Shown here: piece by piece, positions 11,141-16,998 of the stretch
Layout: each line of letters begins with the position of its first letter
How positions within the stretch are numbered: position 1 is the first letter of the stretch
Assembly (NCBI GenBank): GCA_024224155.1
Contig: JAAENP010000348.1
Span: forward strand, 1-36,101
Origin: a bacterium
GTDB lineage: Bacteria; Acidobacteriota; Thermoanaerobaculia; Multivoradales; JAHEKO01
Length of the DNA: 36,101 nt
Direction: 5' to 3'
Notes under the pieces: model-generated
What the model was told of the DNA's origin: nothing
Database searches by the model: none
The model's input: the letters and a program-made list of their open reading frames with translations, nothing else
Translations under genes and position numbers: made by a program

Positions 11141-11792
11141 CCGGTCGCGGTGCTGCCGACTCGATCCTGCTCAATCTGGGCGACTATCGAGAGGCCGCTC
11201 GCCGCCGCCTCGAGGAGCCCACCTTCGACTACTACGCGGGTGGCTCCTATGACGAGATCACGTTGCGCGAGAACCACCGCGCCTACGATCGGATTCGCCT
11301 GTGCTACCGGGTGCTGCGCGAGGTGTCGAGCCGAGATCTGAGCACAACGGTGCTGGGCTCCGCGATCGATCTGCCGATCTTGGTGGCGCCGACCGCGTTT
11401 CAGTCGATGGCCAGCCCGGAGGGCGAAGTGGCGACGGCCAAGGCAGCGGGTCGGTCCGGCACGATCATGATCGTTTCGACCTTGTCCAATCGGCCGATTG
11501 AGGAGATCACGGCCGCGGCGACCACGCCGGTTTGGTTCCAGCTCTACATCTACCGTGATCGTGGCGCGACCCGCGCGTTGGTGAAGCGCGCGGAGGAGGC
11601 CGGCTGCGAGGCGTTGGTGCTCACCGTCGATGCTCAGCTGTGGGGAGAGCGAGAGCGCGATGCTGGATGGATGGCCAGGCCGGAGTCGAGAGCGTGTTCG
11701 CGATCTTGCGACGAGAGCTCGATACTGTGATGGGCCTGTGCGGTGCGAGCCGAGTCACTGAGCTGAGTCGGGGTTTAGTGCGGCGTGGTTGA
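11137..11792 (+). pseudogene. alpha-hydroxy-acid oxidase (FMN-dependent), internally deleted and frameshifted
   Basis: The first ~175 codons, from a GTG overlapping the lipA stop, match the N-terminal half of glycolate/lactate-oxidase-type flavoproteins (FDYYAGGSYDEITLRENH, LPILVAPTAFQSMASPEGE, WFQLYIYRDR, ALVLTVDA, GERERD). The family motif then stops at about 11661 and the frame runs on only to 11730. In the -1 frame, 11670-11792 encodes DGQAGVESVFAILRREL...LCGASRVTELSRGLV and then stops, which is the normal C-terminus of this family. So about 150 central codons, including the active-site His/Arg and much of the FMN phosphate site, are missing and the two ends are out of frame. The join lies in a GATG-rich stretch (11659-11674), consistent with a short-homology deletion. 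The gene cannot make an active enzyme. Confidence 0.85.
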
Positions 11793-11820
11793 CGAGCCGA
11801 GAGTCGTCGCTGACTTCACC

Positions 11821-11850
11821 TTGCCAGCGCCGTTTTGGGGTCGATACAAT
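11821..11850 (+). promoter_or_regulatory. sigma70-like promoter of the GNAT-diiron-PRODH operon
   Basis: TTGCCA (11821-11826), an 18 bp spacer and TACAAT (11845-11850) match the consensus at 5/6 in each hexamer. A start at about 11857 gives a leader of roughly 80 nt. Confidence 0.55.
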
Positions 11851-11874
11851 CGCGCGGGCGTCGATCCCACATGG

Positions 11875-11891
11875 GAGCTGATTGTCAGCTC
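11875..11891. repeat. hairpin in the 5' leader of the GNAT operon
   Basis: GAGCTGA (11875-11881) and TCAGCTC (11885-11891) form a perfect 7 bp stem with a 3 nt loop in the predicted leader. Its role is unknown. Confidence 0.4.
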
Positions 11892-11938
11892 GCGCCCGTT
11901 CGGCAATTCCAGACGAAGTGGAGCAGAGACTCTGAGCG

Positions 11939-12382
11939 ATGAGTAAGGTCGAAGTGCGAATCCGCGCGCTGGAGGACACGGACATCGGGGATATCACCGC
12001 CCTGGACGAGAAGCTCGGCGGGACCTACCGGCCCGCGGTCTGGGAGCGCCGCCTTGGCTACTACCTCAGGCGTGACCCGGAGAGCTCGACGGTCGCCGAG
12101 GCCGACGGCAAGGTCGTGGGTTTCATGCTCGGTGAGGTTCGCTCGGGTGAGTTCGGCTTGGAAGAGCCGACCGGCTGGATCGAGGTGCTGGGTGTCGATC
12201 CCGACTATCGCGGAAACGCCATCGGTCGGCGCTTGGCCGAGCGAGTTCTCGCCAAGTTCGGCGCTCTGGGCGCCAAGAGCGTACGTACGCTCGTGGACGA
12301 TGAAATGGCAGGCATCGGGGATTTCTTTACCGCCCTGGGCTTCGAAGCGGCCACGCTGCGGCCGTTCATCAAGAAGCTCTGA
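11939..12382 (+). CDS. GNAT-family N-acetyltransferase
   Basis: A 147-residue protein of the GNAT superfamily, which transfers an acyl group from acyl-CoA to an amine. The acetyl-CoA pyrophosphate loop is visible in LGVDPDYRGNAIGRRLAE (about residues 83-100; the Q/R-x-x-G-x-G/A core is RGNAIG). The N-terminal RALEDTDIGDITALDE and the mid-protein VGFMLGEV strands also fit the fold. Nothing indicates the substrate; small-molecule or protein N-terminal acetylation are both possible. It is first in the presumed operon: a promoter lies about 90 nt upstream and the diiron-protein gene follows after 23 nt. Confidence 0.87.
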   Translation: MSKVEVRIRALEDTDIGDITALDEKLGGTYRPAVWERRLGYYLRRDPESSTVAEADGKVVGFMLGEVRSGEFGLEEPTGWIEVLGVDPDYRGNAIGRRLAERVLAKFGALGAKSVRTLVDDEMAGIGDFFTALGFEAATLRPFIKKL

Positions 12383-12405
12383 GGCAAGGACACGGAAGAG
12401 GCATC

Positions 12406-13761
12406 ATGTCGACGCGACAAGTCGAGTTACCCAAGAAGTACCATCAGGCGATCGTCAAGTGGAGCGAGCGCTACCTTCCCGATTACGATTTCCTGATCGA
12501 GAGCTGGGACAAGTACTTTCCGCGCGATCCGGAATTCAAGCTCTGCGCCTATCGCGAGCTAGGCATGTGCAACAAGATCGAGTGCGGAGACCTGGAAGGC
12601 CAAGCCAAGTTCGAGCGGGCTGGCAAAATGCATCCCAAGCAGTCGGGCCACGTTTTGGGCGCGATCAGAGCTCAGGCCTCGACCGAATTCGGGTCGATTC
12701 AGCAGCATCAACTGACTCTGGCTCGAGCGCAGGAAGAAGAGGAACAGGTCTGGATTCTGCGCATGATGGCCGAGGAACTGCGCCACGGCTACCAGATGAT
12801 TCATCTGCTCCTAGAGGATGACTGGTCGGGTGCCTCGGACGTGTCCGAGGAGGACATGGTGGAGCAGATTCTCTCGATGCGGACCGGCTCGCACATTCTG
12901 GGCGCGTTCAATATCGACTTCGATTCCTTTGTCGACAACGTGACCTTCTGTGCGTTGATCGATCGAGTGGGCAAGTTCCAACTCGCGATGCAGAAGGTGA
13001 GCTCCTACCAGCCGATGGCCGAGAGCATGCCGCAGATGTTGCGCGAGGAGGCCTTTCATCTCGCCGCTGGGGTCGTACCTCTCAGGCGCTACATGGAGAA
13101 GGCCGCGCGCGGATCGTTCTGCGTCAGCTCCGCGGATATTCAGAAGGCCTTCAACAAATGGTTCCCTCGCGGCTTGGAGATGTTCGGCGACGAGCGCGGC
13201 GGCGGCACGAATGTCCGGTTCGGCCTCAAGCCGATGAAGAACGGAGAGGCGCAGGTCGCCTATGTCGAGGAGGTCGCGAAGGTCGTCCGGGACTTGAATG
13301 TCAGGTTCGTGCGAGCCCGGCTACCGGAGCTCTCGCCCGGCGACTCCCAGAAGGTGCTGGACAAGGTCCTCGAGAATCGAGGGACCGAGCGGGGCATCGC
13401 CTTCGAGGATCTGGTGCATCTACCCGACACGAGGTTCTTCCGCCGTCGCGGAGTCCCCGCATTCGAGCTCGTGGGTCGCGATGGCGAGACTTTCGACGAC
13501 GTCGATGCATACCTGGGCCATCTGACCCGGCATCTCCCGGACGCCTACAGGGCCGGTCGCGACTTCAAGCACTACGTCGACCTGCTGACCCGGGTCCATT
13601 CGGGCGAAACCAGCGTCGTTGACGCCTCACGAGAGATGCCGACGCTGACCCGCGTGGGCGGTGTCTGTCCGTGCTCGAAGTCCGTGCGCTGGGTCAACGG
13701 CAACGGCTCCGATGTCGCCGGGCAGGATCCTCAGGACGGCGTACCAGCGTCCACTCTCTGA
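12406..13761 (+). CDS. PaaA/BoxB-like diiron (ferritin-like) protein
   Basis: A 451-residue protein resembling the phenylacetyl-CoA/benzoyl-CoA epoxidase catalytic subunits (PaaA, about 310 residues; BoxB, about 470). Two diiron ExxH motifs are visible, EELRH (Glu124-His127) and EEAFH (Glu215-His218), in long helices; the intervening carboxylate ligand may come from NIDFDSFVDNV (about residues 169-179). The WFPRGLEMFGDERGG segment is BoxB-like. The C-terminal 120 residues end in an unusual GGVCPCSK with a CxC pair. No PaaBCDE or BoxA reductase genes are nearby, so the epoxidase function is not established; another oxygenase or oxidase reaction on a CoA thioester or other substrate is possible. 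It overlaps the next gene by about 50 nt. Confidence 0.7.
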   Translation: MSTRQVELPKKYHQAIVKWSERYLPDYDFLIESWDKYFPRDPEFKLCAYRELGMCNKIECGDLEGQAKFERAGKMHPKQSGHVLGAIRAQASTEFGSIQQHQLTLARAQEEEEQVWILRMMAEELRHGYQMIHLLLEDDWSGASDVSEEDMVEQILSMRTGSHILGAFNIDFDSFVDNVTFCALIDRVGKFQLAMQKVSSYQPMAESMPQMLREEAFHLAAGVVPLRRYMEKAARGSFCVSSADIQKAFNKWFPRGLEMFGDERGGGTNVRFGLKPMKNGEAQVAYVEEVAKVVRDLNVRFVRARLPELSPGDSQKVLDKVLENRGTERGIAFEDLVHLPDTRFFRRRGVPAFELVGRDGETFDDVDAYLGHLTRHLPDAYRAGRDFKHYVDLLTRVHSGETSVVDASREMPTLTRVGGVCPCSKSVRWVNGNGSDVAGQDPQDGVPASTL

Positions 13762-14701
13762 GGCGCTTCGGCGAGAACGGGCCAAGCAGTTGAGTTTCAC
13801 CAGCCGGCTGATCGTCGCGACCCTGCCACTGATCCCGAAGTTCCTGGTCGGGTGGGTCGCGAGCCGATATGTTGCCGGGGAGACTCGCGAAGAGGCTCTG
13901 GCGGCTGTCAAGGTGCTGAACGAGACCGGTGCCTGCGCGACGTTGGATCTGCTCGGCGAAGAAGTCACGGAGCGTTCCAAGGCCGAGGCCGCCGTGGCCG
14001 AGTACATCGGCTTGTTCGAGGACATCGGACGCGACCAGCTCGACGCCAACGTCTCGATCAAGCTGACTCTCCTGGGGTTGAAGATCGACGAGGACTTCTG
14101 TCGGGAGAACGTCGCGCGAATCGCTGCCGCGGCAGCCCGGTGGAGCAATTTCGTGCGCATCGATATGGAGGATTCGTCCTGCACCGACGCGACGCTCAGG
14201 ATTTACCGGGCGGTTCACTCCGAGCACAGCAACCTGGGCGTGGTTCTGCAGTCCTACATGCGCCGAACGCTTGACGACATAGAGCGACTGCCGGCCGTCA
14301 AGCCCAACGTGCGGCTGTGCAAGGGGATCTACATCGAGCCCCGGCCTCTTGCCTGGAAGGGCTACGAAACGGTTCGGGCCAACTTCACGGCGGCTCTCGA
14401 GAAGTTGCTGCGCAACAACGTCTATGTCGGCATCGCGACCCACGATGAGCATCTCGTTTGTGAAGCCGAGATCCTGATCGACCGCCTCGCATCAACCTCG
14501 GAAGACTACGAGTTCCAAATGTTGCTCGGCGTTGACGAAGAGCTCCGGGCCATCCTCCTCGAGCGGGGCCACAAGTTGCGGATCTATGTGCCCTATGGCG
14601 CAGATTGGTACCCGTACTCGACGCGGCGGCTGCGGGAGAATCCGGAGGTTGCCAAGCACGTGATCCGCGCGACCCTGGGCCTGGGCCCTTCCAGGCGGTA
14701 A
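13712..14701 (+). CDS. proline dehydrogenase
   Basis: About 329 residues of monofunctional PutB/PRODH type (family about 300). The flavoenzyme oxidises proline to pyrroline-5-carboxylate. FAD-barrel motifs visible are VRIDMEDSS, RLCKGIY, GIATHDEHL, FQMLLGV and the substrate-binding YVPYGADWYPYSTRRLRENP near the C-terminus. The ATG at 13712 leaves a 50 nt overlap with the diiron gene; the frame is open to 13661 without support, and a TTG near 13789 would remove the overlap. No P5C dehydrogenase gene is in the window. Its coupling to the diiron protein and GNAT gene suggests one regulatory unit of unknown metabolic purpose. Confidence 0.9.
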   Translation: MSPGRILRTAYQRPLSEALRRERAKQLSFTSRLIVATLPLIPKFLVGWVASRYVAGETREEALAAVKVLNETGACATLDLLGEEVTERSKAEAAVAEYIGLFEDIGRDQLDANVSIKLTLLGLKIDEDFCRENVARIAAAAARWSNFVRIDMEDSSCTDATLRIYRAVHSEHSNLGVVLQSYMRRTLDDIERLPAVKPNVRLCKGIYIEPRPLAWKGYETVRANFTAALEKLLRNNVYVGIATHDEHLVCEAEILIDRLASTSEDYEFQMLLGVDEELRAILLERGHKLRIYVPYGADWYPYSTRRLRENPEVAKHVIRATLGLGPSRR

Positions 14702-14715
14702 GCGCCTTTCCGGAC

Positions 14716-16998
14716 CTATTCCCGCGGCGGGCTCTCGCGGCGCATCGTGACTATTCGATGGCGGCGGTCGCGTTTCGCCCCGCCTTTGGCGGAGCGCTTG
14801 CGTACTGTCTTGGCGCTTTCGGCATAGAAACGCTCGATGGCTTCGGCGCCCGAGCGAGCGGCCTTTTCGGCGGAGTGCTCCAGCCAGGGCAGGGCCTCGG
14901 CCTCGTTCCCTGATTCGAGCAGGTGGAAGGCCAATTCCTCGCTGACGAAACCGGGGTCCGCGCTGTGGCGCCGGAGTAACGCCCGGGCGGCCTCGCCGTG
15001 CATGAAGCCTCTGCGCAGTGGGTTGATGTGGTCGAGGATCGAACTGCGAATCGCTCGGTGGGCGAACTCGAAGAAGCCTCGCCGCGCACCGTGGGCCCAC
15101 AGGACGATGTCTCTCTCCGGGCCGGCCTGGGCCCACGACTGGGGGAACTGCCGGATGAGCCAGCGCTCGAGGGAAAGCTCGATCGCGGTTTCGACCACTG
15201 TCAGGTGTTCGTCGGCCGCTCGGGTGAGGACCTCGACATCGAACTGGTGGCCGAGAATGGCCGCTAGCGAGATGAGTCGTCTCGCGGAGTTCGGCAGCCC
15301 TTGGAAACGACGGTTGATCAACTCGCCGATCTCCTCCGGAGGTTCGATGGCGCCTGGATCCGCGCGCAGCGCCCAGTGTCCGGGAGCAAGCTGGATCAAG
15401 ATCTTCTCGTCCCAGAGCAGGTTGACGAGCTCCGCGATCGCGAGCGGAAGGCCCTGTCCGCTGCGCCAAAGATAGTCGGCAAGCACCGGCGCGCTGGCGA
15501 GATCGACCAGCGACTTGGCGATCTCCTCCACCTGCTTCGAATCGAGTCGTGTCAGGGGGATACCGACGCCCGAATCTCCCAGGGCCGCGAGCGACTCGGC
15601 GATCTTGTCGCTGTCTCGGCTGGTGGCCAGCACCCAGATCGAGCGGCTCGCGAGGTTTTTGGCCAGGAAGTCGAGGAGTGCCAATGTGGCTTCGTCCGCC
15701 CACTGGACGTCTTCGAGCAGGAAGATGATGGGCCTCGTTTCACCCTGCGCAGGCTGGAGCAAGACGTCGATCAGCTCGAGGAAGGAGGCTGCCAGGCGTT
15801 CGGTCCTGCCCAGGCCGGGATTGATCTCGATGTCGAGCGTGGTCGCCGTCAGTTTGGGTAGCTCGGGGCAGAGCAGTGCCAGGTCGGCCAGCACCTGCGG
15901 TTCGAGCCGGCTGGCGCCTTCGGGCTCGTCGGCCAGCAGATCGACGAACACGGAGCGGATGGCCTCGGCGATCGGCCGGTAAGCGACAAGGGGGGCCGAA
16001 GCGTAGGACCGTCCTCTCAGGACCACGGCGTTGCGCATCGAGCTGGCGCTATCGACAAAGGACTTGACTAGCCGGCTCTTCCCGACGCCGCTCTCTCCGG
16101 TGACCACGGAGAATTGCCCCTGGCCGTCGATGACACGGCTCCAGGACGCCTGCAGGATGTCGAAATGATCTCCGCGTCCGATCAAGGGGATGATGGGGGG
16201 GGTGCTCTCTTCCCGGTCCGTGGTCTCTTCGTCGGCTCCGCTCTGCAGCAGAATTGAGCGGTAAAGATCGGTGGTGTCTTCGACCGGATCCACACCCAGC
16301 TCGGTTTGTAGCAGATTGAGAAGCTGCTCGTACTGGGCGAGGGCGCGATTGCGTCGGCCGGCCATCGTGTAGAGGCGCATCAGTTGCTGGTGCGTCTCTT
16401 CGGAGAGCGGATCGATGGCCAGTAGACGCTTGGCGTATTGAATGCCGAAGCGGTGTTCGCCGCGAGCGAGATAGGCACGAACCAGCTCTCGGAAAGCCTG
16501 AAGTGCCTCTTCCCGAGTCTGTTCCTGGCGAGTCACCAGCCACTCCTCGAACTCCACGCAGCCGCGCAGAAAGAACCCGGCCAACAGATCGCCTTTGTAG
16601 AGGCGCACGGCCTCTCGGAGGTGGAGCGGATCCGCCCCAGACTCGGAAAGCCCACGGCGGATGCGGTCCTTGAACTCGACGACGTCGATCCAACACTCGA
16701 GATCGGGATTCAGCCGGACCTGGCTCTGGTCGGTGTCGAGAGCCGCAACGTTCTCGTCATCGTTTCCGAGAGCGATCCGAATGTTGTAGAGCGCCTGGCG
16801 GAGATTCCGCCGGGAAGCCTCGTCGGTTCGTTCCGGCCAGAACAGTCCGGCCAGGTGATCCCTGTTGAGCGACCGGTCTCGATGCAGGGCGAGGTAGGCG
16901 AGCAGCGCTCGGACCTTCTGTGATTCAAACCGCTGAACGGGCCGGTCGGTCAGTTTGGCTTCGAACCCGCCGAGCAGGCGAATCTCGAGGCGTTTCAC
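14716..16998 (-). CDS. BTAD-domain transcriptional regulator with AAA/NTPase domain (SARP/LAL-like)
   Basis: A 760-residue regulator. Residues 1-95 are an OmpR/PhoB-type winged helix (LLAYLALHR...HLAGLFWPER...LRQALYNIRIAL) and about 100-250 form the bacterial transcriptional activation domain (VEFKDRIRRG...LYKGDLLAGFF...EEWLVTRQEQ...ELGVDPVEDT). A P-loop NTPase follows, with Walker A GESGVGKS at 301-308 and Walker B IIFLLEDVQWAD at 424-435. The rest is a helical region typical of large ATP-dependent activators. The start is a GTG with GGAAAG about 8 nt upstream. It is divergent from a small-protein gene, across a region with direct repeats at 11 bp spacing, the geometry SARP-family activators recognise. 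No local metabolic target is obvious. Confidence 0.88.
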   Translation of the reverse strand: MKRLEIRLLGGFEAKLTDRPVQRFESQKVRALLAYLALHRDRSLNRDHLAGLFWPERTDEASRRNLRQALYNIRIALGNDDENVAALDTDQSQVRLNPDLECWIDVVEFKDRIRRGLSESGADPLHLREAVRLYKGDLLAGFFLRGCVEFEEWLVTRQEQTREEALQAFRELVRAYLARGEHRFGIQYAKRLLAIDPLSEETHQQLMRLYTMAGRRNRALAQYEQLLNLLQTELGVDPVEDTTDLYRSILLQSGADEETTDREESTPPIIPLIGRGDHFDILQASWSRVIDGQGQFSVVTGESGVGKSRLVKSFVDSASSMRNAVVLRGRSYASAPLVAYRPIAEAIRSVFVDLLADEPEGASRLEPQVLADLALLCPELPKLTATTLDIEINPGLGRTERLAASFLELIDVLLQPAQGETRPIIFLLEDVQWADEATLALLDFLAKNLASRSIWVLATSRDSDKIAESLAALGDSGVGIPLTRLDSKQVEEIAKSLVDLASAPVLADYLWRSGQGLPLAIAELVNLLWDEKILIQLAPGHWALRADPGAIEPPEEIGELINRRFQGLPNSARRLISLAAILGHQFDVEVLTRAADEHLTVVETAIELSLERWLIRQFPQSWAQAGPERDIVLWAHGARRGFFEFAHRAIRSSILDHINPLRRGFMHGEAARALLRRHSADPGFVSEELAFHLLESGNEAEALPWLEHSAEKAARSGAEAIERFYAESAKTVRKRSAKGGAKRDRRHRIVTMRRESPPRE

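Follow-up and report, generated by a model that had tools for sequence, protein, structure and literature searches.

The stretch of bacterial DNA considered here (the window; 36,101 nucleotides of contig JAAENP010000348.1, assembly GCA_024224155.1, from an acidobacteriote of the order Multivoradales) carries three consecutive genes on its forward strand, encoding a GNAT-family N-acyltransferase, a diiron protein of the PF05138 (PaaA_PaaC) family and a proline dehydrogenase (PRODH). Pfam matches confirm this trio as the original prediction had described it, with 43.6 bits for the diiron protein against a gathering cut-off of 28.5, and 111 bits for PRODH against 27 (Table 1). Our reading, to which we would give an even chance, is that the GNAT and diiron genes form a two-gene unit, a thioester oxygenase with its dedicated acyltransferase, and that PRODH is a separate housekeeping gene probably sharing their transcript. 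We treat the pair as a unit because GNAT accompanies the diiron gene in 43 of 44 genomes and is found in none of 15 others, 14 of 15 genomes that lack the pair still carry PRODH, and paralogous pairs occur without PRODH; the separateness of PRODH and the shared transcript are thus argued from distribution rather than from experiment.

Table 1. Features of the three-gene locus and its immediate surroundings, in window coordinates
Feature	Position	Strand	Basis
FMN-dependent dehydrogenase open reading frame, 197 residues	11137..11730		match limited to positions 1-156 of the 350 in PF01070
Promoter-like site TTGCCA-18-TACAAT, 5' of the GNAT gene	11821..11850	+	10/12 matches
GNAT-family N-acyltransferase gene	11939..12382	+	PF00583 E 6e-14; BadL-like by nearest relatives
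BoxB-like diiron oxygenase-family gene, 451 aa	12406..13761	+	PF05138 E 2.8e-11; BoxB fold; six ligands; cysteine signature
C55-x4-C60, N-terminal part of the cysteine signature	12568..12585	+	25/25 subfamily, 0/20 others
Predicted ligand codon E94 (BoxB E120)	12685..12687	+	HMMER alignment to 3PER
Predicted ligand codons E124, H127 (BoxB E150, H153)	12775..12786	+	alignment
Predicted ligand codon D186 (BoxB D211)	12961..12963	+	alignment
Predicted ligand codons E215, H218 (BoxB E240, H243)	13048..13059	+	alignment
C421-P-C423 tail motif	13666..13674	+	25/25 subfamily; nothing aligned there in 20/20 others
Proline dehydrogenase gene, corrected TTG start	13790..14701	+	PF01619 E 1e-31; conserved start; 2EKG match
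BTAD/AAA_16 regulator, 760 residues	14716..16998	-	SARP/AfsR-like

In what follows, L denotes loci or stretches, G genomes and C contigs. Conservation in relatives had been set beforehand as the check on the trio, and tblastn searches with the three proteins at 30 distinct loci (L002-L031, the window's own included) recovered the diiron gene at 30, PRODH at 30 and GNAT at 29, so that the three stand together at 29 of the 30 and uniqueness to this genome is refuted; at the remaining locus, L008, only 107 bases of contig precede the diiron gene, and the genome's GNAT lies near the start of another contig. The relatives from named assemblies (24 loci, close relatives only) bear the titles Acidobacteria, Acidobacteriota, Thermoanaerobaculia, Thermoanaerobaculum or uncultured bacterium. 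Of the 59 related genomes searched, with the window's among them, 44 hold a diiron orthologue, defined as a match at E 1e-130 or better, with the diverged G051 counted as present and nine weak matches in family f3 (E about 1e-9) counted as absent. The GNAT count includes partial orthologues in G009 and G014 (contig-end pieces) and in G042 (a 45-residue match, 71% identity), and the 15 other genomes give no GNAT match, or none better than E 1e-4. PRODH is present in 42 of the 44 diiron-bearing genomes, the exceptions being G004, where the contig ends inside the diiron gene, and G016, where the diiron match also stops short; the one pair-less genome without it is G032. Across a sample of the phylum, 42 of 297 genomes match the diiron profile, only four of them above 800 bits (the window's and three of the same order), with eight at 364-392 bits and the remainder lower. 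Plasmid homologues came to 30 records, none covering 80% of the query, annotated as boxB, paaA, PaaI, 'Phenylacetic acid catabolic protein' or not at all, and literature searches on the trio or on the diiron subfamily found nothing about either.

The pair has also been duplicated. Three genomes (G020:C24, G035:C183 and G038:C175) contain a second diiron gene, each directly preceded by a GNAT gene of its own, and in the trees of either protein these paralogues group as one clade, with support of 1.0 each time; a second PRODH was found in 0 of the 3. All three paralogous pairs (L084, L085, L086) have a variant radical SAM protein and RIC/YtfE as neighbours, and HemN, a tryptophanase-like enzyme and a Crp/Fnr-type regulator each occur beside two of the three. 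The tryptophanase/tyrosine phenol-lyase-like gene was considered as a partner and rejected, given matches (E 1e-30) in 41 of the 59 genomes, including 11 of the 15 without the pair. The radical SAM, RIC, HemN and regulator genes are the company one might expect if the diiron protein made no product at all and simply consumed O2 or peroxide, shielding oxygen-sensitive enzymes, and L065, with hemerythrin and a BcrAD-family ATPase nearby, fits the same idea; the counterparts of BoxB's substrate-contacting residues are nevertheless conserved, which a scavenger would not need, and we consider this explanation very unlikely.

Since 14 of the 15 pair-less genomes retain PRODH, since the paralogous pairs lack it, and since a 1-pyrroline-5-carboxylate (P5C) dehydrogenase lies on another contig (C458; 761 bits against the TIGR01236 cut-off of 613.6), PRODH, the sole Pro_dh match in the window genome, is best read, on the same distributional grounds, as ordinary proline catabolism placed beside the pair by history. 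Where the pair is missing, the order lipA, PRODH, amidotransferase or ProC, recN is found in L079/L080, L081 and L083, with gene names mostly taken from reading translations; the surroundings vary, with no lipA beside PRODH in L077 and L078, and no recognisable ProC or recN after it in L082. L079 and L080 (G047:C89) are one PRODH region present twice, inverted, on the same contig, and probably represent an assembly palindrome. The original prediction had proposed a previously undescribed pathway, possibly tied to proline, and this proposal has to be divided: an undescribed function for the GNAT and diiron proteins is supported, while the link to proline oxidation suffers from the duplication of the pair without PRODH and the retention of PRODH without the pair. 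A joint three-enzyme pathway is unlikely. In its proline-linked version, PRODH would make P5C or pass on electrons, the diiron protein would oxidise P5C or an acylated form of it, and GNAT would acylate; the near-constant company of the three genes, the short gap in the window with no promoter-like site found within the trio, a ProC-type neighbour of PRODH in 6 of 25 loci (Pfam-confirmed in L046) and the retention of the diiron gene with PRODH in G051, where no GNAT was found, all speak for it. Against these stand the distribution of PRODH just described, and a ProC gene following PRODH also in pair-less L081 (proC above the profile cut-off) and L083 (by reading), which together leave the proline-linked version distinctly unlikely.

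The layout of the locus is consistent with an operon. The plausible promoter reported upstream holds up as a sigma-70-like site, the single one in 11600-15000 against a shuffle mean of 0.4; L003 keeps the same site at a comparable distance, L004 shares the core of the second hexamer, GATACAATC, and a full site occurs in three of the nine upstream stretches scanned (the window, L003 and L014). No further promoter-like site, and in particular none inside the putative operon, and no forward-strand terminator-like site appeared in the 11600-15000 scan. The last two genes had been described as overlapping by about 50 nt, an overlap that we reject because the PRODH start had been set too early: with residue 44 of the long frame as the reference, a start codon falls exactly there at 22 of the 30 loci and no more than nine residues away at a further six, with two left unplaced, and the conserved start in the window is the TTG that leaves a gap of 28 nt after the diiron stop. 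Across loci the diiron-to-PRODH distance ranges from -4 to 201 nt, the overlap not being conserved, and the GNAT-to-diiron distance, 23 nt in the window, ranges from -4 to 266 nt in the 28 measurable loci, those outside the measurement being L017, whose GNAT match carries an internal stop, and L008, whose contig is without GNAT. Judged from the 28-nt gap and the promoter scan, the three genes are likely to be co-transcribed. All three are clearly under purifying selection, with ratios of nonsynonymous to synonymous substitution (dN/dS) against L003, L004 and L006 of 0.06-0.13 for GNAT, 0.06-0.14 for the diiron gene and 0.10-0.16 for PRODH, at dS values of 0.8-1.7 that are in part close to saturation. 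On the 5' side, the FMN-dependent dehydrogenase frame looks like a truncated remnant; on the 3' side, the family of the BTAD/AAA_16 regulator occurs in 8 of 25 stretches compared, no more than two genes from PRODH in seven of the eight.

What marks the diiron protein out is an active site that resembles that of BoxB. The structure prediction suggested at the outset gave a mean predicted local distance difference test score (pLDDT) of 69.8 from 21 sequences and 89.3 from 45, with residues 413-451 below 50, and the best fold match of the model is BoxB (Foldseek E 2.4e-12; VIA-align Z 30.9 over 344 residues, root-mean-square deviation 2.6). Sites were mapped by an HMMER profile alignment to BoxB 3PER, with BoxB residue names taken from PMC5489048. 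The six predicted iron ligands (Table 1) are spaced by 30, 3, 59, 29 and 3 residues here and by 30, 3, 58, 29 and 3 in BoxB, and all six are present in 45 of 45 aligned proteins. The same holds for the counterparts of BoxB Q116, T119, S123 and F193 (Q90, T93, S97 and F168), which are invariant in all 45; according to the BoxB study, Q116 holds the carbonyl of benzoyl-CoA (PMC5489048). BoxB F206 corresponds to F181, invariant in the 21 proteins of alignment A1, which covers 21 of the 30 loci (L005, L007, L008, L009, L015, L016, L021, L022 and L025 were left out, some being cut or carrying a stop) and spans 63-91% identity. From its sequence, then, the protein looks BoxB-like at the active site, while falling below the cut-off for BoxB membership.

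The subfamily also has a signature of its own. Five cysteines (C55, C60, C182, C421 and C423) are present in all 25 subfamily proteins, comprising the 21 of A1, the three paralogues and the diverged L076, and in none of 20 relatives (eight tier-2, eleven tier-3 and one BoxB-like protein from L094); C47 is found in 23 of the 25. The C-terminal CxC noticed in the original prediction is the C421-P-C423 of this set. The subfamily is monophyletic with support of 0.945 and its sister is tier 2, in which the cysteine tail is missing and whose fetched surroundings gave neither a GNAT nor a PRODH match. We infer that C55/C60 and C421/C423 may form a four-cysteine metal or redox site, the tail falling in the low-confidence end of the model, where it could not be placed. 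A bolder version of our reading, that this is a new BoxB-like class whose own cysteine site is the electron entry, replacing a BoxA- or PaaE-type reductase, and which would pass an oxidised acyl thioester to a dedicated GNAT to give an N-acylated product not described so far, strikes us as rather unlikely. Elsewhere, L069-L072 and L074 hold BoxB-like proteins of 369-391 residues beside enoyl-CoA hydratase-like genes, some also with aldehyde dehydrogenase-like or NuoF-like genes (all names by reading), and these are possibly another undescribed group.

The absence of partner subunits, which had been remarked on as odd, stands as an observation: BoxA and BoxC were not found above cut-off in the window genome, which is 96.59% complete (best 36.6 and 101.6 bits), and the genome has one PF05138 match, a second, as a PaaC partner would be, not being found. 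We accordingly reject both the Box pathway for this genome and a PaaA-type multisubunit enzyme. The oddity itself is smaller than it seemed, since a review (PMC4498308) presents BoxB as monomeric, with no structural subunit needed and a seemingly transient contact with its reductase.

The GNAT protein leads to a different set of neighbours, the benzoyl-CoA reductase (bcr) genes. Beyond its orthologues there are 17 GNAT matches (E 1e-10 or better, 29-38% identity) on 13 contigs, and 11 of these contigs carry a BcrC-type gene, the exceptions being G006:C23 and G014:C342. Seven of the 13 (L087-L092 and L095) were read gene by gene, and in all seven the GNAT examined beside an ATPase gene comes after a BcrAD-type frame (by reading); by profile, BcrD is above cut-off in L087 and L095, as are BcrB and oah in L087 and BcrC in L095, where BcrA reaches 571.7 bits against a cut-off of 578. 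These acidobacterial clusters carry BadL-like GNAT genes, two each in L087, L088, L089 and L090, and an Rrf2-type gene adjoins GNAT in L087, L088 and L090 (profile-tested in L087 and L090), an arrangement that recalls badL-badM (PMC6191541). In L065 such a GNAT (34%) lies side by side with hemerythrin and with a BoxB-like protein that scores 239.4 bits on TIGR03225 (cut-off 499.1), near the BcrAD-family ATPase. At the level of whole genomes, a BcrC-type match (E 1e-30) occurs in 18 of the 59, all of them pair-bearing (18/44 versus 0/15), and the window genome itself has, on C99 (L113), a diverged cluster of the benzoyl-CoA reductase-like kind in which oah and had exceed their cut-offs; a hemerythrin-like gene was noticed near that cluster, from reading only. 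Together, the surroundings of GNAT and of the paralogous pairs suggest a role with CoA-bound or aromatic compounds, along with oxygen or nitrosative control, and name no substrate.

Two alternatives follow from this company. GNAT and the diiron protein might be a signal pair, with GNAT acetylating an aromatic amine as BadL does, and the diiron protein making, removing or oxidising the signal, as the related GNATs beside Rrf2-type genes within bcr clusters would suggest; the window pair, however, is flanked by the FMN-dependent dehydrogenase fragment and PRODH with no Rrf2 gene, and its GNAT is just 28-38% identical to the bcr-cluster GNATs, which makes a signal pair unlikely. Protein acetyltransferases switch acyl-CoA synthetases by lysine acetylation, and the close pairing of GNAT with the diiron gene would also suit a GNAT that switches an acyl-CoA ligase, or the diiron protein itself, in this way. 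There is no direct evidence for such a switch, and BadM was not acetylated by BadL homologues under the published test conditions; we regard it as highly improbable.

Returning to a thioester oxygenase with its acyltransferase, the diiron protein would most likely bind, in the manner of BoxB, a substrate carried as a CoA or similar thioester, its carbonyl held by Q90, and oxygen derived from O2 would be inserted at the two-iron site formed by E94, E124, H127, D186, E215 and H218, a site placed by alignment, with metal content and chemistry presumed. GNAT, going by its family, would then take the oxidised acyl group off CoA and attach it to an amine, or else acetylate a small aromatic amine like BadL. 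An unlinked reductase would supply the electrons, with the cysteine site of the subfamily as a possible relay.

Several observations weigh against this reading, and we set them out together. The analysis turned up no substrate, product or reductase, and 26 of the 44 pair-bearing genomes are without a BcrC-type match at E 1e-30, which is why we do not take benzoyl-CoA as the substrate and consider it unlikely as a general one. In the diiron protein, BoxB T210 is replaced by I185 and BoxB F203 falls on N178; a density functional theory study of BoxB ties the T210 peptide to selectivity, and is inconsistent on one residue, naming F203 in one passage and F206 in another (PMC5489048). The distribution counts are not independent, 11 of the 15 pair-less genomes belonging to one family, and only a handful of pair-less cases (f3, genus g18, G047 and perhaps G032) count as independent events. 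In G051, which is 81% complete, a diverged diiron gene (49-51% identity) adjoins PRODH with no GNAT found, an arrangement easier to explain by a link to PRODH than by one to GNAT. Finally, PRODH lies downstream of the pair at 30 of 30 loci, as a mere neighbour need not do.

How does this locus compare with systems that are already known? The closest counterpart of the diiron protein is BoxB, the benzoyl-CoA 2,3-epoxidase of Azoarcus evansii (PDB 3PM5, 3PER and 3Q1G), with which it shares the fold, 22% identity, the six ligands and the matches to Q116, T119, S123, F193 and F206; it differs in scoring 48.8 bits against the TIGR03225 cut-off of 499.1, in having Ile for T210 and Asn for F203, in its added cysteine signature and tail, and in having a GNAT as gene partner. 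PaaA, the catalytic subunit of phenylacetyl-CoA epoxidase, belongs to the same Pfam family and shares the fold core (Z 23.0), whereas the diiron protein reaches only 34.8 bits against the TIGR02156 cut-off of 280. SSO1313, a Sulfolobus ring oxidation-like protein (PDB 4MUD), is the top PDB sequence match (E 3.2e-16; Z 22.7), but it is 235 residues long, aligns to model residues 58-344 only and has Arg at the Q90 position. On the GNAT side, the likeness is to BadL, the aminobenzoate acetyltransferase of R. palustris, Geobacter and Magnetospirillum (PMC6191541), in that a GNAT domain is present and the nearest non-orthologues sit in bcr clusters, at three loci adjoining an Rrf2-type gene; the comparison, drawn through those cluster members rather than through published BadL sequences, gives a low identity, and the direct neighbours here are the dehydrogenase fragment and the diiron gene instead of an Rrf2 gene. 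PRODH, for its part, resembles the monofunctional enzyme of Thermus thermophilus (PDB 2EKG; E 3.5e-54), retaining the KLTxLGL, DMEDS and YPYxTRRxxExPE stretches, and departs from the monofunctional standard in scoring 245.1 bits against the NF045947 cut-off of 500.

To our knowledge, the solved PF05138 relatives of known role come from two aromatic catabolic routes only, Box and Paa. Set beside them is a clade, kept by 44 of the 59 related genomes, that combines a full BoxB-like site with a cysteine signature of its own and, in 43 of those 44, with a GNAT partner; in the window genome neither BoxA nor BoxC is found above cut-off. The case illustrates how a conserved gene order can tie a functional pair to a likely bystander, here PRODH, and if the oxygenase does act on a thioester, it would join Box and Paa as a third use of this chemistry.

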